This document shows positions 527-11,512 of a stretch of DNA of 11,675 nt, one piece after another. The DNA lies in NCBI GenBank assembly GCA_027296805.1, contig JAPUIR010000082.1, positions 1 to 11,675 of the forward strand, given 5' to 3'. The notes beneath the pieces are model-generated. The model searched no databases. It saw only the letters and a program-made list of their open reading frames with translations, and was not told where the DNA came from. Within the stretch, counting starts at the first letter, position 1. Each line of letters begins with the position of its first letter. Source of the DNA: Chloroflexota bacterium (lineage in GTDB: Bacteria; Chloroflexota; Dehalococcoidia; Bin125). A program made the translations under genes and the position numbers.

Positions 527-796
527 ATGGGCAGCTTGATTCAGTCCTTCGGAAAACGCTTCACGGAGTCGCGCACCTGTCAGGGCTGCGCCGTCTCCCG
601 ACGCCCTGCAGTTCGTTACCTCCGCGGCTGGACCGGCTGCGAGCACTGCGCCGCGGATTACTGCCGCCCCTGTCGCGGCGACCTGGAGGTCAGCGACAAC
701 GGCGCCGACTTCTGGAACGCCAAAGAGACCCTGATCCGCTACCGCACCTGCCTCTCCTGTCACTCCGTCATGGAGGAAACCGTCCTCCCTCACTAA
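527..796 (+). CDS. Small cysteine-rich protein with four CXXC pairs, probable zinc binder
   Basis: 89 residues, function unknown. Eight cysteines form four CXXC pairs: C18/C21, C38/C41, C46/C49 and C75/C78, with H40 and H79 beside two pairs. The central stretch GCEHCAADYCRPC places two pairs four residues apart. The four-pair layout is what two-zinc treble-clef/FYVE- or RING-like modules show, so binding of two structural zincs is the simplest reading; this is inference, not a recognised family hit. No signal peptide or membrane segment is visible, so it is probably cytoplasmic. The ATG start follows a -35/-10 pair directly, without an RBS; the next in-frame ATG is close to the C-terminus, so no other start would keep the cysteines. 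Stop is TAA. GC-rich codon use matches its neighbours, and the ordered cysteine pairs argue that it is a real gene. It is followed in the same direction by the amidohydrolase, 81 bases on. Confidence 0.7.
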   Translation: MGSLIQSFGKRFTESRTCQGCAVSRRPAVRYLRGWTGCEHCAADYCRPCRGDLEVSDNGADFWNAKETLIRYRTCLSCHSVMEETVLPH

Positions 797-806
797 CCCG
801 CGACCC

Positions 807-835
807 CCGTCGACCGCCACCCCCGGGCGCGACGG
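807..835 (+). terminator. GC-rich hairpin after the CXXC gene, possible terminator without a U-tract
   Basis: CCGTCG (807-812) pairs with CGACGG (830-835), and CGCC (815-818) pairs with GGCG (826-829). This leaves a 2-base bulge and a 7-base loop. No T-run follows, so it is not a classical intrinsic terminator. It may simply reflect GC-rich sequence. Confidence 0.25.
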
Positions 836-847
836 CGGCCAATTCGC

Positions 848-871
848 TAGCCTATCGATGCCGGGTGGAGG
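848..871 (+). promoter_or_regulatory. -10 box and Shine-Dalgarno of the amidohydrolase gene
   Basis: TAGCCT (848-853) sits in the context GCTAGCCT, which recurs upstream of the SDR at 2910-2915 on the other strand. GGAGG (867-871) lies 6 bases before the ATG at 878 and fixes that start. No clear -35 is seen 17 bases upstream. Confidence 0.45.
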
Positions 872-877
872 CATGCC

Positions 878-2026
878 ATGACCGAGAAGCTCTACTACTC
901 CTGTGATTCCCATGTGGTCGAAGGCCCGGAGGTCTTCGAAGGCTTGGTGGACAAGTTCGGTGAGCGCGCACCACGCGTGGTGCAAGATCCCCCGGGCCGC
1001 GACGGGATCTACCTCGTTTGGCCCAAGCAGGATCTTCCTCTGCCCATTGGACGCTTTGGCATCGCGGGCGCCAACCTGGACCTGCCCGAGACGAAGGAAC
1101 GTATCAAGCAGGGCTGGGACGGGATCAACCCGGGCGTCAAAGACCCCGTCGCCCGTCTCAAGGAGCAGGCCCAAGACGGCATCGTGGGCGAGGTGATGTA
1201 CCCCAGCATCAACATGTTTACCTTCTCCGTCCCCGACCGTGAGGTCGTGCAGGAGGTCTTCCGCCGCCACAACGACTGGATCGTCGACTACTGCTCGCAC
1301 TCCCCAGACCGACTGATCGGCGTCGGCTGCCTCCCCCTGCCCGACGTCGAGGAATCGATCACGGAACTTGAGCGCGTCGTCAAGCGGGGCCTGCGCGGCG
1401 TCGCGATCCCCTGCACCGCTCCCCCCGACAAGCCCTACAGCGATCCCGCCTATGAGCCCTTCTGGTCGGCCGCGGAAGAGGCCGGCATCCCCATCACCAT
1501 GCACATCTTCTGCGGCTCGGAATGGGGCATGAGCCTGCCTTCCCACTGGAATCCCGTCACCTCCTACGCCATGGCTTTGTCCGCGATCTCCTGGACGGTG
1601 GAGACGCTGATCACATCTGGCGTCGTCGAACGACACCCCAAGCTCCAGTTCGTCTGCGCCGAGTGGGAGACCGGCTGGATGGCGCACTGGTTGGAGCGCC
1701 TCGACCACGCCGCCTACCGCTCCCCCTTCGCCATCGCCAAAGAGGTCAAGGACAAGCCCACTGAGTACTTCCGTCGCAACTTTCACGTCACCTTCGAGGA
1801 CGACGAGTTCGGCATCCGCACCCGTGACGGCATCGGCGTCGACCGCATGTTGTGGGGCAACGACTACCCCCACCACGATTCGATCTGGCCCAACTCCCGC
1901 CAGGTCCTGGAGCGGATCATGCGCGACGTGCCCGAGGCGGAAGAGCGCGCCATGACCTGGGGCAACGTACTCAAGCTCTACAACCTCGACGAGGCCAAGG
2001 TGCGCGCCGCTGCCTTGGTCGAGTAG
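878..2026 (+). CDS. Amidohydrolase-2 family metal-dependent hydrolase/decarboxylase
   Basis: 382 residues, a full-length TIM-barrel amidohydrolase of the amidohydrolase-2 (ACMSD-like) group. Visible metal/active-site elements are the N-terminal D10-S-H12 (DxH), H209 in ITMHIFCG after strand 5, E262/E264 in the CAEWETGW segment, and the C-terminal LWGNDYPHHDS with D329 and H332/H333. Family members hydrolyse or non-oxidatively decarboxylate aromatic and other acids with a bound divalent metal; substrate and reaction cannot be decided. There is no signal peptide, so it is cytoplasmic. The start is set by GGAGG 6 bases upstream; an ATG at 873 is out of frame. It ends in TAG, 20 bases from the end of the convergent SDR. 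Such enzymes are often found in many copies in bacteria that degrade recalcitrant organic matter. Family call firm, exact function open. Confidence 0.92.
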   Translation: MTEKLYYSCDSHVVEGPEVFEGLVDKFGERAPRVVQDPPGRDGIYLVWPKQDLPLPIGRFGIAGANLDLPETKERIKQGWDGINPGVKDPVARLKEQAQDGIVGEVMYPSINMFTFSVPDREVVQEVFRRHNDWIVDYCSHSPDRLIGVGCLPLPDVEESITELERVVKRGLRGVAIPCTAPPDKPYSDPAYEPFWSAAEEAGIPITMHIFCGSEWGMSLPSHWNPVTSYAMALSAISWTVETLITSGVVERHPKLQFVCAEWETGWMAHWLERLDHAAYRSPFAIAKEVKDKPTEYFRRNFHVTFEDDEFGIRTRDGIGVDRMLWGNDYPHHDSIWPNSRQVLERIMRDVPEAEERAMTWGNVLKLYNLDEAKVRAAALVE

Positions 2027-2046
2027 CGGCACCGAATACCCGTCGG

Positions 2047-2865
2047 CTAGCGGGCCGGTCCCCGCAACAGCACCCCGCCGTCCACAGGCAGCACAACGCC
2101 CGTGACGTAGCGCGCCTCGTCCGACGCCAGGAACAACGCCGCGTATCCGATGTCCCAGCCCGTCCCCTCGATCTCCAGGATCGAGGCCCGTCGCCGCCGT
2201 TCTCGCAGCTCTTCCGGCATCGCCCCGCCCGCGCCCACCATCGGCGTATACACGGGCCCGGGTGCGATGCAGTTGACCCGGATTCCGTCCCCCGCGTGGT
2301 CCACCGCCATCGCCCGGGTCAGTGCGATCACCGCCCCCTTCGACGTCGTGTACGCCGTCAGCCCCCGCGCGCGCATCGCCGCAATCGACGAGATATTGAC
2401 GATCGCCCCGCCACCCGACGCCGTCATCGCCGGGATCGCTGCCCGGCTCGACAGCATCATCCCGGTCACGTTCACCTCCAGCACCCGGTTCCAATCATCG
2501 GGGTCCAGATCGACCACGCTGCCCCGGCTGCCGATGCCTACGTTGTTGTGCAGGATGTCCAGCCGCCCCCAGCGATCGAGCGCCCCAGCCGCCATCGCGG
2601 CACAGTCCTCCTCCGAGGTCACATCAGCCTCGAACGTGGCCGCCTCGCCACCCTCCTCCGTGATCATCGCCAGCGTCGCCTCGGCCGCGCTCAGGTCACG
2701 GTCGACCAGGAGCACCTTCGCGCCCGCCCGCGCGAACAGGATCGACGCCGCACGTCCGTTCCCAATACCGGGACCCCGCGACCCACCACCCGTCACGATC
2801 GCGACCTTGTCTTGCAGTCGCTGGGGGACCGCGGCGAGGGGATCGGGCGGTGTCTGGCTGGGCAT
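2047..2865 (-). CDS. SDR-family NAD(P)-dependent oxidoreductase
   Basis: 272 residues, a classical-length short-chain dehydrogenase. The cofactor loop is VTGGGSRGPGIGNG (residues 24-37), a longer variant of TGxxxGIG that I recognise from one SDR subfamily. An acidic D55 after strand 2 (LLVDRD) suggests NAD rather than NADP. The NNVG motif is at 107-110. The catalytic serine is S159/S160 in NISS, and Y172-x-x-x-K176 is present. PG and VDGG motifs close the C-terminus. It should oxidise an alcohol or reduce a carbonyl in the cytoplasm; substrate unknown. The start at 2865 is chosen because AGGAGG (complement of 2871-2876) lies 5 bases upstream. An open frame continues upstream but has no SDR homology. 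It is divergent from the thioredoxin/NHL gene and convergent with the amidohydrolase, and ends in TAG. Confidence 0.93.
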   Translation of the reverse strand: MPSQTPPDPLAAVPQRLQDKVAIVTGGGSRGPGIGNGRAASILFARAGAKVLLVDRDLSAAEATLAMITEEGGEAATFEADVTSEEDCAAMAAGALDRWGRLDILHNNVGIGSRGSVVDLDPDDWNRVLEVNVTGMMLSSRAAIPAMTASGGGAIVNISSIAAMRARGLTAYTTSKGAVIALTRAMAVDHAGDGIRVNCIAPGPVYTPMVGAGGAMPEELRERRRRASILEIEGTGWDIGYAALFLASDEARYVTGVVLPVDGGVLLRGPAR

Positions 2866-2909
2866 GATGACCTCCTGCGTCACAACGACGGCGCGCCTGG
2901 CGAGCCCGT

Positions 2910-2915
2910 AGGCTA
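2910..2915 (-). promoter_or_regulatory. -10 box (TAGCCT) of the SDR gene
   Basis: The minus strand reads GCTAGCCT, the same octamer as before the amidohydrolase at 846-853. Expected transcription start is about 2903, giving a leader of some 38 bases that holds the AGGAGG ribosome site. No clear -35 is visible. Confidence 0.4.
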
Positions 2916-2975
2916 GCGCTCCGCCGTCACAGCGGGCGCTGCAGCCAAAGCGAGCAGGCCGGCCGCCCCCTCCGA

Positions 2976-3002
2976 TACGATGGCGCGCAGCAGATCGGAG
3001 AG
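2976..3002 (+). promoter_or_regulatory. -10 box and Shine-Dalgarno of the thioredoxin/NHL gene
   Basis: TACGAT (2976-2981) is a plausible -10. GGAGAG (2997-3002) ends 4 bases before the ATG at 3007. This ribosome site matters: it supports translation starting upstream of the in-frame TGA at 3145, not at a later internal codon. Confidence 0.5.
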
Positions 3003-3006
3003 CCGC

Positions 3007-4494
3007 ATGACAGCACCGCCCGCCTACGGCGACGCGCCCGCACCGCTTATCGCACCGGGCCTGGAATGGCTCAACACCGGACGCTCGCTCTCCATGGACG
3101 ATTTCCGTGGGCGCCTCACCATCTTCCATTTCTGGACCTACGCTTGAATCAACTGTCTCCATGTCCTTCCGCAGTTGCGGAAGCTTGAGCGGCGCTACCC
3201 CGGGAAACTCCAGGTCGTCTCCGTGCACTCGCCCAAGTTCCCCACCGAGCGGGAAACCGAGGCCTTGCGCGCGGCCATCCTCCGCCTTCGCATCGACCAC
3301 CCCGTCGTTAACGACGCCGACTTCCAGATGTGGCAGACCTACGACAACCGCGCCTGGCCCACCCTGCTCTTCGTCGATCCCAAGGGCAACATCATTGGCA
3401 AACACGAAGGCGAGATCGTCGCCGAATCAATCGACGGCCTGATCAGGCAATGGATCGAGCAGTACGATCAGAACGGCGACTTGGTCGGCCAACCCCTGGA
3501 CTTGACTCCCGAAAACGCGGCCGGCAGCGGCCTGCTGTTCCCCGGCAAGGTGCACTACGACGACAAGACGGGCCGCCTCTTCATCGCCGACTCCAACCAC
3601 GACCGGATCGTCGTCTCCAACCTGGACGGCGACGTCGAGCAAGTTATCGGCGGCGCCGACATCGGCCGCAACGACGGCCCAGCCGACGTCGCGACCTTCA
3701 ACCAGCCCCAAGGCCTCGCCCTGGGCGAAGGCGGCTGCTGGGTCGCCGACGTGGAGAACCACTCGATTCGTCGCATCGATCTGAAAACGTGGGAGACGGT
3801 CACAATGGCGGGCACCGGGACGCAGTCCTATGTCCGCCCCCAGCGCGGCGCCCCCATGGCGACCGCACTCAACTCCCCCTGGGACGTCGCCGTCCACGAC
3901 GGCACCCTTTACATCGCGATGGCCGGCAGCCACCAACTCTGGTCAATGCCGCTCACCGCCAACGATGTCGGCCCTTGGGCCGGCAGCATGGCGGAAGGCA
4001 TCGTGGATGGGCCGCGCGCCGAGGCCGAACTGGCACAACCCTCGGGACTGGCTATCGGACCCAGCGGCGTCACCTTCGCCGACTCCGAGTCGAGCGGAGT
4101 CCGCGAAGTCACCTTTGCCGACGAGCGCGTCCAGACCTTCATCGGCCGCGGGCTCTTCGAGTTCGGCGATCAGGACGGCGACCGCGACGTCGCCAAGCTG
4201 CAACACCCGCTCGACGTCGCCTGGGTTGGCGACGACCTCTACGTCGCGGACACCTTCAACCACAAGATCAAGCAAGTCTTCCCCGGCATGCAGCAGGTCC
4301 GGACCCTCACCGGCGGGCTGGGGATGGCCGACGGACCGCTCAGCGACGCCCGCTTCAACGAGCCGGGCGGGCTTTGCACGGGCCCCGGTCACTCCCTCAT
4401 CGTCGCCGACACCAACAATCACCGCATCCGTCTGCTCGACCTCGACCAGCAGGACGTCCGTACGATCCCCATCGACCTCGACGGTCCGGCTTAG
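3007..4494 (+). CDS. Selenocysteine-containing thioredoxin-like/NHL-propeller protein (NHLRC2-type), in-frame TGA read as Sec
   Basis: 495 residues if TGA 3145-3147 is read as selenocysteine (U47). The thioredoxin-like domain (about 1-155) has FHFWTYA-U47-INC50-LHVLPQL, i.e. Sec-x-x-Cys where relatives have CCINC, and a cis-Pro in RAWP (P118) before TLLFVDPKG. A six-bladed NHL propeller (about 165-493) follows, with NHL-type motifs at about residues 192, 246, 303, 357, 413 and 466, spaced roughly 55 apart. Animal NHLRC2 has an extra C-terminal beta domain that is absent here. No signal peptide is seen, so it is probably a cytoplasmic thiol/selenol redox protein; partners unknown. The ATG at 3007 has GGAGAG 4 bases upstream, and the 46 codons before TGA encode the expected first strand and helix. 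The frame is continuous on both sides of TGA, with no other disruption. Alternatives are a nonsense mutation or a sequencing error. A default gene finder would start at TTG 3175, inside the hairpin, and lose the active site. Confidence 0.85.
3145..3188 (+). promoter_or_regulatory. Candidate bacterial SECIS element directing Sec insertion at TGA 3145-3147
   Basis: CTTCCGC (3166-3172) and GCGGAAG (3177-3183) form a perfect 7-bp stem closed by the loop AGTT (3173-3176). TCAA (3149-3152) can pair with TTGA (3185-3188) as an outer stem below a large internal loop. There are 25 bases between TGA and the loop, and a G among the first two loop bases. Both agree with the bacterial SECIS rules as I know them (roughly 16-37 bases; G in the first two loop positions). 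Leu codons CTT, TTG and CTT in this stretch depart from the CTC/CTG preferred elsewhere in the gene, as expected if RNA structure constrains the codons. Confidence 0.7.
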
Positions 4495-4504
4495 CGAGAG
4501 CCGA

Positions 4505-5404
4505 CTAGCGGAACTCGGATCCGACCTCCGTGATGAAGCGATCAGCGATCGCCAGCTTCTCCTCCACGCTCGCGCCCAGGTTGAAGTCCGGGATGATGAT
4601 CTCGTCCACCCCGGCATCCACGTAGCGCTGCACGATCGTCTTGACCTGATCAACGTTGCCCGCGATCACTGGACGTCCCATGCTGGCCGCCTTCTCCACC
4701 TCCGCCGCATCGTCACTCAGGACCAGAAGCGCCGCCGCGGAGCGCTGAATGGCCGCCGGATCCCGGCCCACCTTCGAGCAGTGGTCGTCCAGCACCGACA
4801 TCTTGTGCCGCAACGTGTCGGGATCGCCCCACACGTTCCACTCGTGCGCGTACTTCGCCGCGATCTTCAGCGTCACCTTCTCGCCGCCCCCACCAATCAT
4901 GATCGGCAGCGGCGACTGCACGGGCTTCGGGTTTAGAGGCGCGTCGTTCACCGTGTAGTACCGTCCCGCGAACGACGTCTTCCCCTCCGAGAACAGCCCC
5001 GTGATGATTGCGCAGGCCTCATCCAGGCGGCGCAACCGCTCCGGCATGTCGTAGAACGGAATGCCATAGGCGGCGTGCTCGTTCTCTTGCCACCCCGCGC
5101 CCAAGCCCAGAATGAAGCGGCCCCCACTGATCTGGTCAACTCCGGCAGCCATCTTCGCCGTCACCGGCGGATACCGGTACGTGTTGCCATTGACCAGATG
5201 CCCGATTCGCACGCGGGGCACGCTCGCGGCGATCGCCGCGACGAACGTCCACGACTCATTCGTGGGTCCCACCGGGTCCGCCACGTTGGGCATGAAGTGG
5301 TCCGCGTACCAGATCCCATCCCAACCCGTCGCCTCGACATGGCGGCACAGCCCGATCGTGTCTTCCCAATCGCTCCCCGCTCCCGGCCAAAACCCAAATC
5401 GCAT
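4505..5404 (-). CDS. Luciferase-like (LLM) F420-dependent oxidoreductase
   Basis: 299 residues, full-length luciferase-like monooxygenase TIM barrel. Visible blocks are MRFGFWPG at the first strand, GWDGIWYADHF (27-37), HLVNGNTYRYPPVTAKMA (69-86), the hallmark SGGRFILGLGAGW (93-105) followed by ENEHAAYGIPF, and the phosphate-binding PIMIGGGGEK (167-176). Family members use F420 or FMN for oxidoreduction or flavin monooxygenation; the closest-looking group is the F420-type LLM class, but substrate and cofactor are not proven. The start is ATG 5404-5402, with GAGGAG (complement of 5414-5419) 9 bases upstream. A longer frame to 5494 overlaps the preceding gene and adds non-homologous residues. 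It lies 44 bases behind the winged-helix regulator on the same strand, so co-transcription is plausible. It ends in TAG, only 10 bases from the convergent selenoprotein gene. Confidence 0.92.
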   Translation of the reverse strand: MRFGFWPGAGSDWEDTIGLCRHVEATGWDGIWYADHFMPNVADPVGPTNESWTFVAAIAASVPRVRIGHLVNGNTYRYPPVTAKMAAGVDQISGGRFILGLGAGWQENEHAAYGIPFYDMPERLRRLDEACAIITGLFSEGKTSFAGRYYTVNDAPLNPKPVQSPLPIMIGGGGEKVTLKIAAKYAHEWNVWGDPDTLRHKMSVLDDHCSKVGRDPAAIQRSAAALLVLSDDAAEVEKAASMGRPVIAGNVDQVKTIVQRYVDAGVDEIIIPDFNLGASVEEKLAIADRFITEVGSEFR

Positions 5405-5445
5405 CTCGATTCGCTCCTCTCCAACGTTGCTCACGGCCGCTCCGC

Positions 5446-5451
5446 AGCCTA
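5446..5451 (-). promoter_or_regulatory. Possible internal -10 box (TAGGCT) for the LLM gene
   Basis: TAGGCT on the minus strand begins with the TAG stop codon of the regulator gene and fits the TAGNNT pattern. It would place a start about 35 bases before the monooxygenase ATG. Because the TAG is already explained as a stop codon, this is weak; read-through from the regulator promoter is equally likely. Confidence 0.2.
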
Positions 5452-6099
5452 CCGGATGGGCATGCGACGTCCCGCCTTCCCGCTGGCCTGCCAACTCGGC
5501 TCGCCCAGACGCACCACGGGCGCGAAGTAACGCGGCCCCACTCGCTCGATCACCTCACCCAGCCCAGCCTTCCGGCATTTGCGCCGAATGTTCGCGACGT
5601 GAGTACGCGAGACCCCCGTCGTTCCGCTGGCATATCCCAGCTCGGACCGCAGCTCCTCCCCGGTCACGCCTCCAGGGGCGGCCACCAAGCAGGCCACAAT
5701 CGTCAGCTCTGACGGAGTCAGAGCGATCTCCCCATCGGCACCGCTCAGCCTCGCGAGATGCGGATCCAGGACCAACGCGGCCGGGGGCAACAATGCCTCC
5801 CAGATGCGCCCCACCTCCCGCTCCACGAGTGTGACGCTTGCGGGCATCGCTCCCTCCCACGGTTCGACGGCGACCGCGACGCCCGCCTCCACCAGGCCCG
5901 ACTCCCACGCCCGCACCGCCCCTTCGAACTCGGTATCGGGCAATCCCCCATCGATAGCGATCCCCGCGAAAACCACGGATGGCCAGGATCGCAGCGCTGC
6001 CGGAACGTCGGCCGCCACGTGGAGCTGAGCCCGATCGGGCATCGCGTCCCGCAGCCGCGCCGCAAGCCGCTCGTCCCGAGAGACCAACAGATAACCCAT
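5449..6099 (-). CDS. OmpR/PhoB-type winged-helix transcriptional regulator with degenerate receiver-like N-terminus
   Basis: 216 residues. The C-terminal part (about 118-205) is an OmpR/PhoB-type winged helix: a LTPSELTIVACLVAAPGG helix pair, the EELRSELGY turn, recognition helix VSRTHVANIRRKCRKAGL and the wing IERVGPRYFAP. The N-terminal part is only distantly receiver-like: LLVSRDERL stands where receivers have an acidic pair, and AIDGGLPD aligns with the phospho-acceptor segment, so D50 may be the acceptor. One of the two pocket acids is missing and the rest of the domain is unusual, so phosphorylation control is doubtful. No histidine kinase gene is nearby. Start is ATG 6099-6097, with GGAG (complement of 6108-6111) 8 bases upstream; no alternative upstream start is visible. 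It is divergent from the ABC exporter operon across 48 bases and is followed by the LLM gene, so it probably controls the exporter and itself. Confidence 0.8.
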   Translation of the reverse strand: MGYLLVSRDERLAARLRDAMPDRAQLHVAADVPAALRSWPSVVFAGIAIDGGLPDTEFEGAVRAWESGLVEAGVAVAVEPWEGAMPASVTLVEREVGRIWEALLPPAALVLDPHLARLSGADGEIALTPSELTIVACLVAAPGGVTGEELRSELGYASGTTGVSRTHVANIRRKCRKAGLGEVIERVGPRYFAPVVRLGEPSWQASGKAGRRMPIR

Positions 6100-6147
6100 C
6101 TCGACCGCTCCAATGTGAGTGATAGCATCCTCCGGCGAGCGAGTTGT
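6100..6147. promoter_or_regulatory. 48-base divergent promoter region between regulator and ABC exporter operon
   Basis: On the plus strand TCGACC (6101-6106) and TAGCAT (6123-6128), 16 bases apart, form a possible -35/-10 pair, giving a leader of only about a dozen bases for the permease. On the minus strand TATCAC (complement of 6119-6124) in an extended TGC-TATCAC context could be the regulator's -10, overlapping the other box. Two promoters in so small a space would interfere, and one bound regulator could control both. No clean operator repeat is visible, though a short GCGAGCGAG direct repeat lies at 6135-6143. Confidence 0.45.
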
Positions 6148-9100
6148 ATGCCTATCTCTCTGGTAACGGTGTTGCGGATTGTGATCCGCCGCGTCAACGG
6201 CAATCGCCGCCTGACGGTGGCCATGATCGTGGGCGTCGTCCTCGCTATCGGCCTGATGTCCAGCACCGTCATCTACCGCGACGCCCTCGACGACCTGGGC
6301 CTCAAGTTCGACCTCGGCCGGACCGACCAATCCGAACTCGACCTCCTGATCAGCACCTCCAACCACCTCGCCTCCAGCGACGAATACGAGCGCGACCAAC
6401 GCACCATCGACCGGCGGCTCGACCCGATCGATCACTTCCTCACGGGACGCACACGCGTGCTCACGACTGCGACCTTCTTCCTCACCCCTCCCGGCGAGGC
6501 CGTGACCGAGGAGCCGGACCGGCCCCGCTCGCGCTTCCAATTCCTCAGTGACCTTGAATCCAACATCACGGTCGATGAGGGCACCTTCCCCCCGCGCGAG
6601 GCCACCTTCAGCAACCCACCACGGATTGATGTGTCGCTGAGTTCAGAGGCGGCAGCGGCCTTCGGAGTCTCCATCGGGGACGAATTCGACCTGCACCCCT
6701 TCTGGCGCGCGGACAAGGAACCGGTACGAGTCATCGTGACGGGGCTGATCAGCCAAACAGACCCAGAGGCCGATTACTGGCGCGACGATCCGGATCGCTT
6801 CGTCGTCAACACCCCCGCCTGGAACACCTTCGCCTTCTTCATCGACGAGAACGCCCTCTTCGACGTCCTCGCCGTCTACCTGCCCGACATATCCGCCGAC
6901 CTCGAAACCATCGCCTACGTCAACCAGGGATCCCTCAACTCACGCAACGCCGCGGAGGCCGCCCTCCTCCTGCGCGCCTCCATGCAGGCCATTGGCGGCG
7001 AAGTTGAACGCACGCGCGTTCAGACCCAGCTTCCCAGGGTCCTGGAGACCTTCACCGAAAAGAAGTTTTTCTCTCGCTTGCCCCTCCTGGTCCTTACCCT
7101 GCAAGTGGTCGGTATCGTCCTCTACTACGTCGTCATGGTCTCCACCCTCGTCGTCGATCGGCAGAGCGGCGAGATTGCGCTGCTCAAGAGCCGCGGGGCG
7201 GGGCTGTACCAGATCGTCTCGGTCTACCTCATCGAAGGCGGCGTCCTCGCGGCCATCGGGATGGCGCTGGGACCGCTGCTCGCCCTGGGCGCCATCGCCG
7301 GACTCGGCAAGACCCCACCCTTCGATGGCCTCAGCGGCGGAGACTTCCTCAGCGTGCGCCTCACCGCAGGGGCCTATCTCTGGGGTGGCATCGGCGCCGC
7401 TCTCTCCATCCTCGCCCTCGTCTGGCCCGCCTTCCGCGCCAGCAACTACTCCATCGTGCGCTACAAGCAGGCGATCTCCCGCCCCGCGGAAAAGACGGTG
7501 ATTCAGCGCTACTACCTGGACGTCGTCCTAGTCATCGTCGCGTTGATTTTGTTCTTCCAGCTCCAGGACTCCGGCTCGCTCGTCACCGAGGACCTGTTCG
7601 GCGGCTTGGAGCAAGATCCGCTGCTGCTCATCGCCCCCGCCATCTTCATTGTCGCTGTGGGCATCATCTTCCTGCGCATGTTCCCGCTGATCCTCTCGAT
7701 CGCTTCATGGGCAAGCGACAAATTCGCCGGCATCGCGGTCCAACTCAGCCTCTGGCATCTCGTCCGCGCCCCACTCCAGAATGCCCGGCTCGTCCTGCTC
7801 CTCATCCTTGCCACCAGCATCGCCATGTTCTCCGCCACCTTCGGCTCCACGCTCGATCAATCCTTCGAAGATCGCGCCAGCTACCTGACCGGTGCACCGT
7901 TGCGCGTCTCGGAGGTGCGGCTGGCTCGCGGGCTCGGCGTCGAACCTTTCCGCGAGACGTTCCAGAATCACCCCGGCGTGGAACGAATCGCGCCCGTCAT
8001 CCGCAGCGAGGCAACCTACGTCCGCGCGCTCGCCACCACCTTCCGCGCGAGTCTGCTCGGCGTCGACGTCGAGTCCCTCCTCCTCGAGGATGTCGCCTTC
8101 TTCCGCGAGGACTTCGCCGCCGTCGACCTCGCGACATTGCTCGAGCCCATCGCAGCGAACGGCGTCGATCCACCGCAGCTCCGAGTCCCGGCTGAGGCGC
8201 GCCGCCTCGGCATGTGGCTACGCGTGCCGCAAGGGACTCAGGGAATGCTCGTCTCGGCGCGCGTGCGCGACTCCCTGGGCAGCTATCAAGACATCAGCTT
8301 CTTCGGCCTCGACCCCCGCAACCCCGCTCCCGGGGGCTGGCTCTTCGTCGTCGCCCCGCTCGAACCTGACGCGCTCGCACCCGACATCGACTTCCAGATC
8401 TCCCCCCTCGCCGACGGCCCCAAAGACGTCGTTTCCGTCTTCATGCGGACCTTCGGCCGCAGCATCTTTTCCGGCGAGGTCTTCTGGGACGACCTCCAAT
8501 ACAGCACCGAAGCAGGCTTCCCCGAACCCCTCATCCAGGAAGGCTTCACCGACGGCACGGTGATTGAACCCTTCGAAGACATCCGGCGTTGGGAGGTCCT
8601 CAGCGGCTTGGTGCGCGGCCGCGTCCCCGACGAGTTCAGCATCTCCCGCTCCGACCCCAAAGTCGGGCAAGCCTCCGCCCGCTACGCCTGGACCCAGAGT
8701 TTCGGCAGCAGCGGCATCCGCGGCGCCCGTCTCGTGGGCGACCAGGAGCGGCTTGCCGTCGTCGCCAGCGCCGACTATCTCGACGACGCAGGGCTTTTCG
8801 TCGGCGATGAGATCGAACTCTCAATCACGGGCGGCTTCATCCCCGCGCGCATCGCCGGCTCCTTCGATCTCTTCCCCACCTACGACCCCCGCGTCGACAG
8901 CGGCCTCCTCATCGTCAACATCGATCGCTTCCTCTATTTCGGCAACCGCAACCCTGGGGGCGGCCGCAATCGCACACCCAACGAAGCCTGGATCGTCCCC
9001 ACCGCAAACGGCGGACTGGAGCTGCTGCGAGCCGATCTCGAAGAAGAGATATTCGGGCGCGTGGAGGTCTTCGACGCTTCCGCCGTGCGCACCGAACAAG

Positions 9101-9549
9101 AAGAAGATCCCCTCGTCGCCGCCGGTTGGGAAGGGGTACTCTTCCTCGCCTTCCTCGCCGTCCTCATCCTCAGCGCCCTTGGCTTCCTCGTCTCCTCCTT
9201 CCTCACCGCTCAGACCCGCTCCCTGGAATTCGCCATCCTGCGCACGATGGGCTTCTCCACCCGCCAGATCCTCAGCGTCGTCTCCTTCGAGCAACTCTTC
9301 ATCATCTTCGTCGCCATGACCATCGGTACCTTGGTCGGTCTCCGACTCGGCGTGCTCATGATGGAGTTCCTGGGCGTCACGGAACGCGGCGAAGAGGTCA
9401 TCCCGCCCTTCACACTGGCCATCGACTGGGCGACAATCGGGGTCGCCTACGGGATCCTGCTAGCGGTCTTCCTTGGTACGATCGCGGTGGTTGTCCTGGC
9501 CTACGCTCGGCTCGCCGTCGCGCGAACCTTGCGGCTGGGCGAGTCCTAG
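6148..9549 (+). CDS. FtsX-like (MacB/LolC-type) ABC transporter permease, duplicated module
   Basis: 1133 residues. Ten membrane segments can be read: TM1 (about 22-43), three of the first FtsX module (about 311-335, 356-386, 408-430), two linkers (456-474, 492-519), TM7 (545-566) and three of the second FtsX module (997-1022, 1042-1075, 1096-1122). Large extracytoplasmic domains lie between TM1 and TM2 (about 270 residues) and between TM7 and TM8 (about 430 residues), of the MacB periplasmic-core kind. Two half-permeases are thus fused in one chain, as in many FtsX-superfamily (type VII) exporters that move lipids, lipoproteins, peptides or drugs from the membrane outward. The short cytoplasmic loops after TM2 and TM8 (RQSGEIALLKSRGA; RSLEFAILRTMGF) are the ATPase contacts. 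The ATG at 6148 begins just before TM1; its ribosome site is weak. The frame is open further upstream, but there it overlaps the regulator. First gene of a three-gene operon. Confidence 0.93.
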   Translation: MPISLVTVLRIVIRRVNGNRRLTVAMIVGVVLAIGLMSSTVIYRDALDDLGLKFDLGRTDQSELDLLISTSNHLASSDEYERDQRTIDRRLDPIDHFLTGRTRVLTTATFFLTPPGEAVTEEPDRPRSRFQFLSDLESNITVDEGTFPPREATFSNPPRIDVSLSSEAAAAFGVSIGDEFDLHPFWRADKEPVRVIVTGLISQTDPEADYWRDDPDRFVVNTPAWNTFAFFIDENALFDVLAVYLPDISADLETIAYVNQGSLNSRNAAEAALLLRASMQAIGGEVERTRVQTQLPRVLETFTEKKFFSRLPLLVLTLQVVGIVLYYVVMVSTLVVDRQSGEIALLKSRGAGLYQIVSVYLIEGGVLAAIGMALGPLLALGAIAGLGKTPPFDGLSGGDFLSVRLTAGAYLWGGIGAALSILALVWPAFRASNYSIVRYKQAISRPAEKTVIQRYYLDVVLVIVALILFFQLQDSGSLVTEDLFGGLEQDPLLLIAPAIFIVAVGIIFLRMFPLILSIASWASDKFAGIAVQLSLWHLVRAPLQNARLVLLLILATSIAMFSATFGSTLDQSFEDRASYLTGAPLRVSEVRLARGLGVEPFRETFQNHPGVERIAPVIRSEATYVRALATTFRASLLGVDVESLLLEDVAFFREDFAAVDLATLLEPIAANGVDPPQLRVPAEARRLGMWLRVPQGTQGMLVSARVRDSLGSYQDISFFGLDPRNPAPGGWLFVVAPLEPDALAPDIDFQISPLADGPKDVVSVFMRTFGRSIFSGEVFWDDLQYSTEAGFPEPLIQEGFTDGTVIEPFEDIRRWEVLSGLVRGRVPDEFSISRSDPKVGQASARYAWTQSFGSSGIRGARLVGDQERLAVVASADYLDDAGLFVGDEIELSITGGFIPARIAGSFDLFPTYDPRVDSGLLIVNIDRFLYFGNRNPGGGRNRTPNEAWIVPTANGGLELLRADLEEEIFGRVEVFDASAVRTEQEEDPLVAAGWEGVLFLAFLAVLILSALGFLVSSFLTAQTRSLEFAILRTMGFSTRQILSVVSFEQLFIIFVAMTIGTLVGLRLGVLMMEFLGVTERGEEVIPPFTLAIDWATIGVAYGILLAVFLGTIAVVVLAYARLAVARTLRLGES

Positions 9550-9571
9550 CAGGCGGATTGGAGCAGTGTCG

Positions 9572-10543
9572 ATGTCGCAACAGGGTGCGCACGGACCTCG
9601 GGGGGTGGACACGCCGTCCGCCTACGTCCGCGACGCCGGCCGCGACTCCCAAGACCTGTTCCACATCGTCTGCGAGGACCTCTTCAAGATCTACAAGATC
9701 GCCGACCTGGAGGTCGTCGCTCTGCGCGGCCTAGATCTCCGCGTGCGCCGCGGTGAGCTGATGGGAATCGTCGGCTCCTCCGGCTCTGGCAAGTCCACGC
9801 TGCTCAACGTCCTCGCCGGCCTCGACCTGCCTAGCGCCGGCGCCGCGTACGTCAACGGCCGCAACCTCATCGCGATGTCGGAAGAGGAACTCGTCGACTA
9901 TCGCCGCCGCGAGGTCGGCTTCGTCTGGCAGCAGACCGGCCGCAATCTCATCCCCTACCTCTCCACCCGGCAGAACGTAGAGATCCCCTTGGTCCTCAAC
10001 GGCACCTCGCGACGCCAAGCCAAGCAGCGCGCCGAAGGGCTCCTGGAGTCGGTCGGCCTGACCGGCAAGCTGAAGGCGCTGCCCGACACCCTCTCGGGAG
10101 GTGAGCAACAGCGCGTCAGCATCGCCGTCGCCCTCGCCAACGCCCCCAACGTCCTCCTCGCCGACGAGCCCACGGGCGAACTCGACACGCACACCTCAGA
10201 GGAGATCTTCGAACTCTTCGCCAACCTCAACAAGGACTTGGGCGTCACCATCATCGTCGTCACGCATGATCCGGCGATCGCCGCCCGCGTCGACCGCGTC
10301 GTCGCCATCCGCGACGGCCGCATCGCCACCGAAACCTTCCGCCACTACGAGTACAACTCCGCCGGCGAGCGCACTATCGTCCACCGCGAGTACGCCGTGG
10401 TCGACCGCGCCGGCCGCCTCCAGATCCCCAAGAGCTTTATGGATGCCCTCGACTTGCGCGAGCGTGCCCGCGTCCTACTCGCCTCCGACCACGTCACGAT
10501 CTACCCCGAGGACGCCGGGCCAGAAAAGCCCCCAGAGGAGTAG
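9572..10543 (+). CDS. ABC transporter ATP-binding protein with C-terminal AbrB/SpoVT-like domain
   Basis: 323 residues. The ATPase domain (about 33-255) is complete: Walker A GSSGSGKST (68-76), Q-loop VWQQTGRNLIPYL, signature LSGGEQQR (174-181), Walker B NVLLADEP with E199, and switch H232. This is the MacB/LolD/FtsE-like class that pairs with FtsX-like permeases. Residues about 277-312 (VDRAGRLQIPKSFMDALDL, then a VLLASDHVTIYP strand) resemble the swapped-hairpin AbrB/SpoVT fold, an unusual addition to an exporter ATPase. A 30-residue N-terminal extension precedes the domain. ATG 9572 has GGAG (9560-9563) 8 bases upstream; an in-frame GTG two codons earlier is too close to that site. It follows the permease by 22 bases and precedes the second ATPase by 3 bases. 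It powers the exporter, probably as a heterodimer with the next gene product. Confidence 0.93.
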   Translation: MSQQGAHGPRGVDTPSAYVRDAGRDSQDLFHIVCEDLFKIYKIADLEVVALRGLDLRVRRGELMGIVGSSGSGKSTLLNVLAGLDLPSAGAAYVNGRNLIAMSEEELVDYRRREVGFVWQQTGRNLIPYLSTRQNVEIPLVLNGTSRRQAKQRAEGLLESVGLTGKLKALPDTLSGGEQQRVSIAVALANAPNVLLADEPTGELDTHTSEEIFELFANLNKDLGVTIIVVTHDPAIAARVDRVVAIRDGRIATETFRHYEYNSAGERTIVHREYAVVDRAGRLQIPKSFMDALDLRERARVLLASDHVTIYPEDAGPEKPPEE

Positions 10544-10546
10544 CCG

Positions 10547-11512
10547 GTGCCCGACCTCCCCGTCGTCTCCGCCATCGATGTCAACCGCGAGTTCCAGGTC
10601 GGCTCTGAGGTCGTCCATGCTGTCCGCGATGCTTCCCTGGAAGTCCATCGCGGAGAGTTCGTCGCGCTCATCGGGCGCTCCGGCTCCGGCAAGACCACCC
10701 TCCTCAACATCATCGCCGGCCTCGACAAGCCCACTTCCGGCATCGTCAAGATCGACGGCGAAGACATCACCAAGTACAACGAGCGCCAGCTCACCAACCT
10801 GCGCCGCCACAAGATCGGCTTCGTCTTCCAGTCCTTCGGACTGTTGCCTCTGCTTTCGGCCGCCGAGAACGTGGAGATCGCGCTGCGCATCGCTGGAGCA
10901 GGCCTGCGCGCCCGCCGGCGCCGCACCGACGAACTCATGGAGATGGTCGGCCTCGCCGGCCGCGCCCACCACCGCCCCTACGAACTCTCCGGCGGCGAAC
11001 AGCAGCGGGTCGCGATCGCTCGCTCCCTGGCCAACAGCCCCGAACTCGTTCTCGCCGACGAGCCCACCGGCGAACTCGACTCCTCGACCGCCGTCAGCAT
11101 CTTCGAACTCCTGGGCAGCCTCGTGCAGGAGCAGAACGTCACCATCATCACGACGACCCACGACCGCACGGTTATGGAGTTCGTCCCTCGCATCGAAGAG
11201 ATGAGCGACGGACACATCCTCACCCCAGATGAGCAGGAGCTGTTCGAATACACCATGCGGGACGAGCGCAGCCACTTCGCGGCCGAGCTCCCCGCCGACA
11301 TTCAGGAGGAGGTCTCCGCGACCTTCACCCGGGAAACGGAAGTCCGCCACGTGGTCCAGCAGCGGGAGCTGCCCGCCCGGGACGGTCGCCCCCAGCCGGA
11401 ACCGGAACCCGCGCCCGCCGGAGCCGCCGAAGAGAGCGAGCCCGCCGGGCCCGCCGACTTCCGACCGCCCCCCGACCGCGAACGACCGGACTGGGCCAAG
11501 AAAGAGGACTAG
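10547..11512 (+). CDS. ABC transporter ATP-binding protein, MacB/LolD-like, with acidic Pro-rich tail
   Basis: 321 residues. The ATPase core (about 5-225) is intact: Walker A GRSGSGKTT (43-51), Q-loop VFQSFGLLPLLSAAENV, signature LSGGEQQR (147-154), Walker B LVLADEP with E172, and switch H205. After residue 225 comes a helical linker and a Pro/Glu/Arg-rich, probably disordered tail (about 279-321) that is not part of the ATPase fold. The start is GTG 10547, with GAGGAG (10535-10540) 6 bases upstream. The gene begins 3 bases after the stop of the first ATPase, so the two are translationally linked. Both ATPases keep all catalytic residues but differ in sequence and C-terminus, so the working unit is probably one duplicated permease with two non-identical ATPases. 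Ends in TAG. Confidence 0.93.
   Translation: MPDLPVVSAIDVNREFQVGSEVVHAVRDASLEVHRGEFVALIGRSGSGKTTLLNIIAGLDKPTSGIVKIDGEDITKYNERQLTNLRRHKIGFVFQSFGLLPLLSAAENVEIALRIAGAGLRARRRRTDELMEMVGLAGRAHHRPYELSGGEQQRVAIARSLANSPELVLADEPTGELDSSTAVSIFELLGSLVQEQNVTIITTTHDRTVMEFVPRIEEMSDGHILTPDEQELFEYTMRDERSHFAAELPADIQEEVSATFTRETEVRHVVQQRELPARDGRPQPEPEPAPAGAAEESEPAGPADFRPPPDRERPDWAKKED

Follow-up and report, generated by a model that had tools for sequence, protein, structure and literature searches.

The window, by which we mean the whole stretch of 11,675 nucleotides that was analysed, carries at 3007-4494 a reading frame with one internal stop codon. On direct translation the frame extends on the forward strand from the ATG at 3007 to the TAG at 4492-4494, and its single internal stop is the TGA at 3145-3147. 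If this TGA is decoded as selenocysteine (Sec), the product has 495 residues, with Sec47 located within FWTYA-U-INCLHVLPQLRKLE. The nearest in-frame stop 5′ of the gene is at 2914-2916, and there is an extra in-frame ATG at 2980. The features of the gene are listed below.

2997-3000, forward strand: likely ribosome-binding site GGAG, 6 nt 5′ of the ATG at 3007 (direct reading)
3007-4494, forward strand: predicted NHLRC2/SOQ1-type selenoprotein gene; thioredoxin (Trx)-like domain and six-blade NHL propeller, 495 aa with Sec47
3145-3147, forward strand: in-frame TGA, predicted Sec47, position 1 of UxxC (A-U-I-N-C), aligned with Cys90 of human NHLRC2
3154-3156, forward strand: TGT, Cys50, the second Cys position of UxxC (direct reading)
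3166-3183, forward strand: SECIS-type hairpin, stem 3166-3172 / 3177-3183, loop AGUU 3173-3176
3175-3177, forward strand: TTG, an almost invariant Leu codon where loop and stem of the hairpin adjoin (synonymous-codon test)
3355-3363, forward strand: W-P-T (W117-P118-T119), the cis-Pro position of the thioredoxin fold (translation; 48-sequence alignment)

Re-reading of the sequence and its translation agreed with the initial annotation, which had described a single in-frame TGA at the first Cys of a CXXC motif in an otherwise intact frame, and a ribosome-binding site before the upstream ATG. The gene stands alone, flanked on both sides by opposite-strand genes. The neighbours at 878-2026, 2047-2865, 4505-5431 and 6100-11512 correspond to an amidohydrolase, a short-chain dehydrogenase, a luciferase-like oxidoreductase and an FtsX-type permease with two ABC ATPases. 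None of the eight assumed genes of the window (527-11512) ends in TGA (seven TAG, one TAA), possibly reflecting avoidance of TGA as a stop, although the sample is small.

The N-terminal part of the window protein matches the Pfam families Thioredoxin_8 (38.9 bits) and AhpC-TSA, and the NHL repeats score 91.8 bits. NCBIfam has no model that reaches its own cut-off for this protein. The top PDB sequence match found by phmmer is human NHLRC2 (6gc1, E 1.1e-98). The AlphaFold2 model, made from an input alignment of 48 rows out of 121 available proteins, had a mean pLDDT of 94.0 and a pTM of 0.92; when compared by Foldseek with 6gc1 it gave a TM of 0.92 at 40% identity. By manual count the predicted model contains 24 propeller strands, equal to six blades, and W117 and P118 are invariant in the 48-sequence alignment. 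The order of domains, Trx-like and then a six-blade NHL propeller, is that of the NHLRC2/SOQ1 architecture. The assignment to the NHLRC2 type and the complete six-motif propeller, both of which had been proposed from the letters of the DNA, are borne out by these comparisons. The same applies to the proposal that the FWTYA and INC flanks form the active-site segment of the family: FTYCCINC of NHLRC2 aligns with FWTYAUINC.

Human NHLRC2 shares the two-domain architecture and the fold. Its CCINC motif (residues 89-93) was placed in the cleft between the domains, with the cis-Pro adjacent (PMC6107167). In this numbering the window protein has Sec for Cys90 and Ala for Cys89, and it stops after the propeller, without the C-terminal domain of NHLRC2. 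The active-site motif of the NHLRC2/SOQ1 family is given as CC(I/V)NC (PMC6107167). A-U-I-N-C of the window protein departs from it, and by motif the protein is a Sec/Ala variant and not a strict member of the family; we file it as NHLRC2-type because of its fold and full-length homology, not because of the motif. C-U-I-N-C is present in 52 of the 72 Sec rows of the tree described below. The lumenal domains of plant SOQ1 are also alike (7djj, E 2.3e-98 by sequence; 7djk, TM 0.92 by Foldseek), but SOQ1 is a Cys form. The C-terminal domain of mycobacterial DipZ (2hyx, 5cyy) has a related Trx-like domain with an SCINC site, but it matches only query residues 17-167, the Trx-like part, and has no NHL propeller match. 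As no signal peptide is evident by eye, the window protein is probably cytosolic.

The TGA is conserved among relatives. The gene is present in 19 of 20 same-family genomes, the source included, and all 19 copies carry TGA at the identical codon; in a wider set, 23 of 100 related genomes had a match at E≤1e-60. The twentieth same-family genome (G001) gave no match at E 1e-60 though it has a tRNA-Sec, which we counted against the selenoprotein reading. Beyond the TGA, 16 of the 19 family loci stay open for 448-462 codons, and the other three run off contigs. The additional stops seen in L023, L028 and L032 agree with the C-terminal stops of these loci (TAG, TAA and TGA, respectively). Class-level relatives L035, L036 and L038 carry TGC at the site; L040 does not cover it. 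A sample of 400 genomes of the phylum contained the protein in 80, of which 58 have an internal TGA and 22 have no stop (one of these does not cover the site). Where the codon was read (26 of the 58 and 7 of the 22), it was TGA in 26/26 and Cys in 7/7. Homologues with TGA and homologues with TGC or TGT, which the initial annotation had proposed to look for, were thus both found. The site aligns with Cys in homologues, and the codon is TGC or TGT in seven Cys loci, which places the UGA at a Cys position.

The source genome is a draft, 79.63% complete and in 453 contigs, and in such an incomplete genome the TGA might be a nonsense mutation, a mark of a decaying pseudogene or a sequencing error. 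The identical TGA in 18 other same-family genomes makes a one-base error very unlikely. Scattered stops and frameshifts, named earlier as a sign of decay, were sought in relatives, but none of the 16 loci that are complete within their contigs has an additional internal stop. Selection was assessed from pairwise dN/dS, with pairs of dS outside 0.05-2.5 left out. For the 46 codons 5′ of the TGA the median was 0.107 (114 of 120 pairs; highest single pair 0.71), which indicates purifying selection, and the medians after the TGA were 0.049 and 0.119 (single pairs up to 0.40 and 1.28). With purifying selection on both sides of the TGA, we give decay or error next to no chance.

A second explanation, in which this lineage has reassigned TGA or reads it through as a different amino acid, would fit the lack of TGA among the eight stops of the window genes. 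However, TGA terminates the same gene in five relatives (L019, L026, L031, L032 and L033), so it still serves as a stop there, and in the source genome it terminates an acyl-CoA-dehydrogenase-like ORF. The only other in-frame TGA of this genome that was examined lies in SelD, in a context that fits a known Sec motif (see below), and in homologues of the window protein the site aligns with Cys. Reassignment is therefore a very improbable explanation.

The TGA is followed by the hairpin CUUCCGC-AGUU-GCGGAAG. The published bSECIS model specifies an apical loop of 3-9 nt, an upper stem of 4-16 bp, a G in the first two loop positions, a spacing of 16-37 nt and an MFE of ≤-7.5 (PMC13188914). The window hairpin agrees with it in every respect: a 4-nt loop with G second and then U, 7 bp, 25 nt from UGA to loop, and a fold of -14.3 kcal/mol for the 48-nt segment 3145-3192. 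The hairpin, like the wide spread of the Sec form, had not been noticed in the first reading of the sequence.

Conservation of the hairpin was evaluated in 100 unique Sec loci, which comprise 94 distinct sequences. In these 94 sequences 92.2% of the 658 stem cells are paired (83.9% in shuffled alignments, at most 68.1% when the stem is slid). Compensatory double changes occupy 50 cells against 14.8 in shuffles, a value that 0 of 500 shuffles reach, and the covariation score is 0.283 (0.136 shuffled, at most 0.124 slid). Counted by pairs, double changes are not significant (4 against 3.0 shuffled, a value that 90 of 500 shuffles reach), and the RNAalifold consensus energy is weak, -1.14 kcal/mol; we counted both against the selenoprotein reading.

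A strict hairpin, with at least 6 unbroken bp and fitting the model, was found in 87 of the 100 Sec loci, compared to 18.6 expected under synonymous shuffling, and in none of seven Cys loci (0.7 expected). It was not found in 13 of the 100 Sec loci, close relatives L020, L023 and L027 included. Measured against a synonymous-codon null, 6.81 of the 7 stem pairs are formed in the 16 loci that score over 500 bits (4.11 expected) and 6.36 in the 84 others (4.26 expected); in the seven Cys loci the figure is 3.29 (3.47 expected). TTG is the codon used for Leu at the edge of the loop in 91 of 97 Leu cases of the Sec loci (11.2 expected) and in 3 of 7 Cys loci (0.5 expected). Free energy alone was a weaker discriminator: against synonymous variants the mean z was -1.55, with p<0.05 in 46 of 100 Sec loci and in 0 of 7 Cys loci. 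One Cys locus, L185, has in the region after its active-site TGT six of seven stem positions paired, an AGTT loop and one mismatch. This may be the trace of a lost SECIS, possibly after a recent Sec-to-Cys change with the hairpin decaying. In the copies from NC10 (L044, L126) and a planctomycete (L082) the hairpins differ from this one, with loops UGGAC and GGUC.

How the gene appears in databases was examined in a set of 5.8 billion sequences, in which 7,823 proteins passed the E-value. Among the best 120 of these 7,823, 87 are without the active site and 33 are Cys forms; none contains U. The printed starts of the truncated proteins among these 120 lie a short way past the TGA position. The window's own protein is one of the 87, and some truncated entries are named alkyl hydroperoxide reductase. 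That ordinary gene calling misses the gene, as had been claimed, agrees with the loss of the active site in these 87; we attribute it to the Sec codon being read as a stop.

The same entries could be used to argue that the TGA is a true stop and that the working product is a headless propeller protein of 439 aa started after it. The 87 proteins without active site measure 422-462 aa, and the sole ORF in the frame of the gene in the mechanical ORF list has 439 aa, starting at TTG 3175. But the 46 codons before the TGA, with the low median dN/dS given above, are conserved at the protein level and correspond in alignment to the beginning of the Trx domain; the database proteins begin at varying residues. 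Moreover, the start of the 439-aa ORF is the near-invariant TTG that belongs to the hairpin itself, and a true stop leaves the hairpin unexplained. We consider a headless product highly unlikely.

The initial annotation had proposed a search of the source genome for selA, selB, selC and selD. A tRNA-Sec (selC) was found at 75.7 bits, its anticodon TCA confirmed by ARAGORN, and, like it, selA (540.6 bits) and selD (365.7 bits) exceeded their curated cut-offs. SelB was represented by a fragment below the cut-off (207.4 bits; cut-off 242.25), which covers profile positions 2-166 and stops 28 bases from a contig end. Three of the four genes were thus present; selB was seen as a partial match, which we counted against the selenoprotein reading. 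Thioredoxin reductase, a possible electron donor, gave one piece of 118.6 bits, below its cut-off. The selD gene of the source genome (L191:2190-3041 and upstream, contig C388) itself has one in-frame TGA, in HCGG-U-ASK; a UxxK motif is listed for Sec-containing SelD (PMC13188914), and HCGG-U-ASK fits it.

A tRNA-Sec scoring over 60 bits is present in 16 of the other 19 same-family genomes, and G006, G014 and G019 have selA instead. Weak tRNA-Sec matches (about 30-53 bits) occurred in same-family genomes and in 14 of 14 control genomes, and strong ones alone were counted. In the phylum sample tRNA-Sec (E≤1e-9) accompanies 49 of the 58 TGA genomes, and the remaining 9 have selA. The background is high, 305 of 400 genomes, so the presence of tRNA-Sec alone discriminates little. 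Co-occurrence was accordingly discarded as a proof: it is necessary but non-discriminating, 19 of the 22 no-stop genomes having tRNA-Sec as well. In 12 same-family genomes (G002:C7, G003:C4 and ten others) the NHLRC2-type gene and tRNA-Sec share a contig, about 12-20 kb apart. Scanning of nine ORFs in this stretch of G002 revealed no selenium gene (five belong to unrelated families, four had no match at E 1e-10), and we tentatively read the linkage as ordinary synteny, not as a selenium locus.

The TGA in 19 of 19 family copies, the presence of selA, tRNA-Sec and selD, the conserved hairpin and the intact frames uphold the claim of a real selenoprotein. We are highly confident, on sequence evidence, that the gene encodes an NHLRC2/SOQ1-type Trx-like/propeller protein that has Sec in place of the first active-site Cys. 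Judging from the machinery genes and the hairpin, SelB with Sec-tRNA(Sec) would bind the hairpin 25 nt after the UGA and insert Sec47. From the fold and UxxC chemistry we infer a redox cycle between Sec47 and Cys50. The selenolate of Sec47, at the N-terminus of the Trx helix and beside the cis-Pro, would attack an oxidised substrate bound in the cleft that separates the Trx domain from the propeller; the selenenylsulfide would be resolved by Cys50. A cytosolic, reducing role seems most likely because there is no evident signal sequence. Human NHLRC2 was inactive in an insulin reduction assay, which according to its authors suggests no role in thiol-disulfide exchange (PMC6107167), and this counts against a catalytic role.

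The distribution of the Sec form was followed with the pattern FWTxxUINC, which by design detects TGA forms only. A scan of 84,980 species genomes gave at least 119 stretches. In total 169 loci were classified, 10 of them without an alignable site; 41 at ≤150 bits (39 TGA, 2 Cys) were put aside as weak, a set made up of some contig-cut NHLRC2-type genes (e.g. L050, L061, L071, L081) and, for the remainder, mostly short redoxins. Among the matches listed, 118 loci are NHLRC2-type (111 TGA, 7 Cys), 107 without exact duplicates. They come from records of Chloroflexi and its classes, Rokubacteria, NC10/Methylomirabilota, Planctomycetota, Actinomycetota (Thermoleophilia, Coriobacteriia), Gemmatimonadetes, Acidobacteria and one Bacillota MAG. 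As almost all of these records are metagenome bins, single placements may be binning errors. The predicted Sec form of the NHLRC2-type protein recurs across several phyla.

A quick ML tree was made from 133 rows thinned to 104 (72 Sec, 32 Cys), the window protein being removed by the thinning. It needs six changes between Sec and Cys, at least four of which are forced by starred branches. L182, a Cys gene of the window's phylum, sits inside a Sec group, and Sec genes of NC10 and a planctomycete are placed in a group dominated by Cys forms (26 Cys, 2 Sec). The tree is unrooted, has SH-aLRT support only and includes three long-branch rows, and the directions of the changes are tentative. The Sec and Cys rows also differ near the active site. 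At +9 from Sec there is Gln in 65 of 72 Sec rows and Asp in 24 of 32 Cys rows; at +11 there is Arg in 65 of 72 Sec rows and Lys in 25 of 32 Cys rows. The codons of +9 and +11 fall in the loop and stem of the hairpin, and we counted the difference in favour of the selenoprotein reading. Shared ancestry accounts for part of this difference, and the F, W, T, I, N and C of the pattern-drawn Sec rows were fixed by the search itself.

The pattern scan also drew short redoxins with FWTxxUINC and TGA (L068:6538-7056, L075:267-899, L072:2494-3198, L149:3800-4411 and similar). These four belong to PF00578/PF08534, and TGA redoxins occur in Rokubacteria, Binatia, Chloroflexi and others. Of the 39 weak-match TGA loci, some of which are cut NHLRC2-type genes, 27 have a SECIS-type hairpin (6.1 expected). 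The short TGA redoxins are probably the catalogued Prx-like/Redoxin UxxC selenoproteins. The catalogued Prx-like thiol:disulfide oxidoreductase and Redoxin-family selenoproteins (PF00578, PF08534) resemble the window protein in having Sec first in UxxC and a related Trx-like fold, but they are listed without an NHL domain (PMC13188914); the Redoxin entry may partly overlap with the NHLRC2-type protein.

Table 1 of the 2026 catalogue names 119 selenoprotein families and subfamilies, none of them with an NHL or propeller domain, and the words 'NHL' and 'propeller' do not occur in its main text (PMC13188914). Neither do they occur in the main texts of PMC9312934, PMC12013277, PMC2398784, PMC1088965, PMC5029168, PMC5736913 and PMC3281104. 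Among the open-licence papers found on selenoproteins in connection with NHLRC2, NHL or propeller domains, SAR202, Chloroflexi or Chloroflexota, and on bacterial selenoproteomes, no title or opening of an abstract describes an NHLRC2-type, NHL or propeller selenoprotein. Within these sources, the initial impression that a Sec form of the Trx-NHL architecture was undescribed stands. The entries 'Redoxin family, UxxC' and 'Trx-like 1, COG0526, UxxC', as given in the catalogue table (PMC13188914), could include unrecognised fragments of the NHLRC2-type protein.

A broader reading, taken as a whole and held with slight preference, is that annotation conceals a large selenoprotein family of NHLRC2-type proteins, with Sec as the prevailing and perhaps the older state in Chloroflexota. 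It holds, at the same modest strength, that the recoding hairpin altered the helix that follows the active site (Asp/Lys to Gln/Arg), that Sec was gained and lost several times, and that the residue repeatedly occupied by Sec acts as the redox nucleophile throughout the family, in human NHLRC2 and plant SOQ1 as well. The unrelated hairpins in the NC10 and planctomycete copies point to gains of Sec, and the damaged hairpin retained by the Cys copy L185 to a recent loss.

The finding would add to the selenoproteins a two-domain architecture that is absent from the 2026 list of 119 (PMC13188914, Table 1). It also exposes a systematic misannotation, the active site being missing from 87 of the best 120 of 7,823 database proteins. 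Human NHLRC2 is an essential protein, and its family is poorly understood. The exchange of one active-site Cys for Sec in many bacteria points to the nucleophilic residue and to a redox function, and the bacterial Sec enzymes may offer test systems for the redox function of NHLRC2-type proteins.
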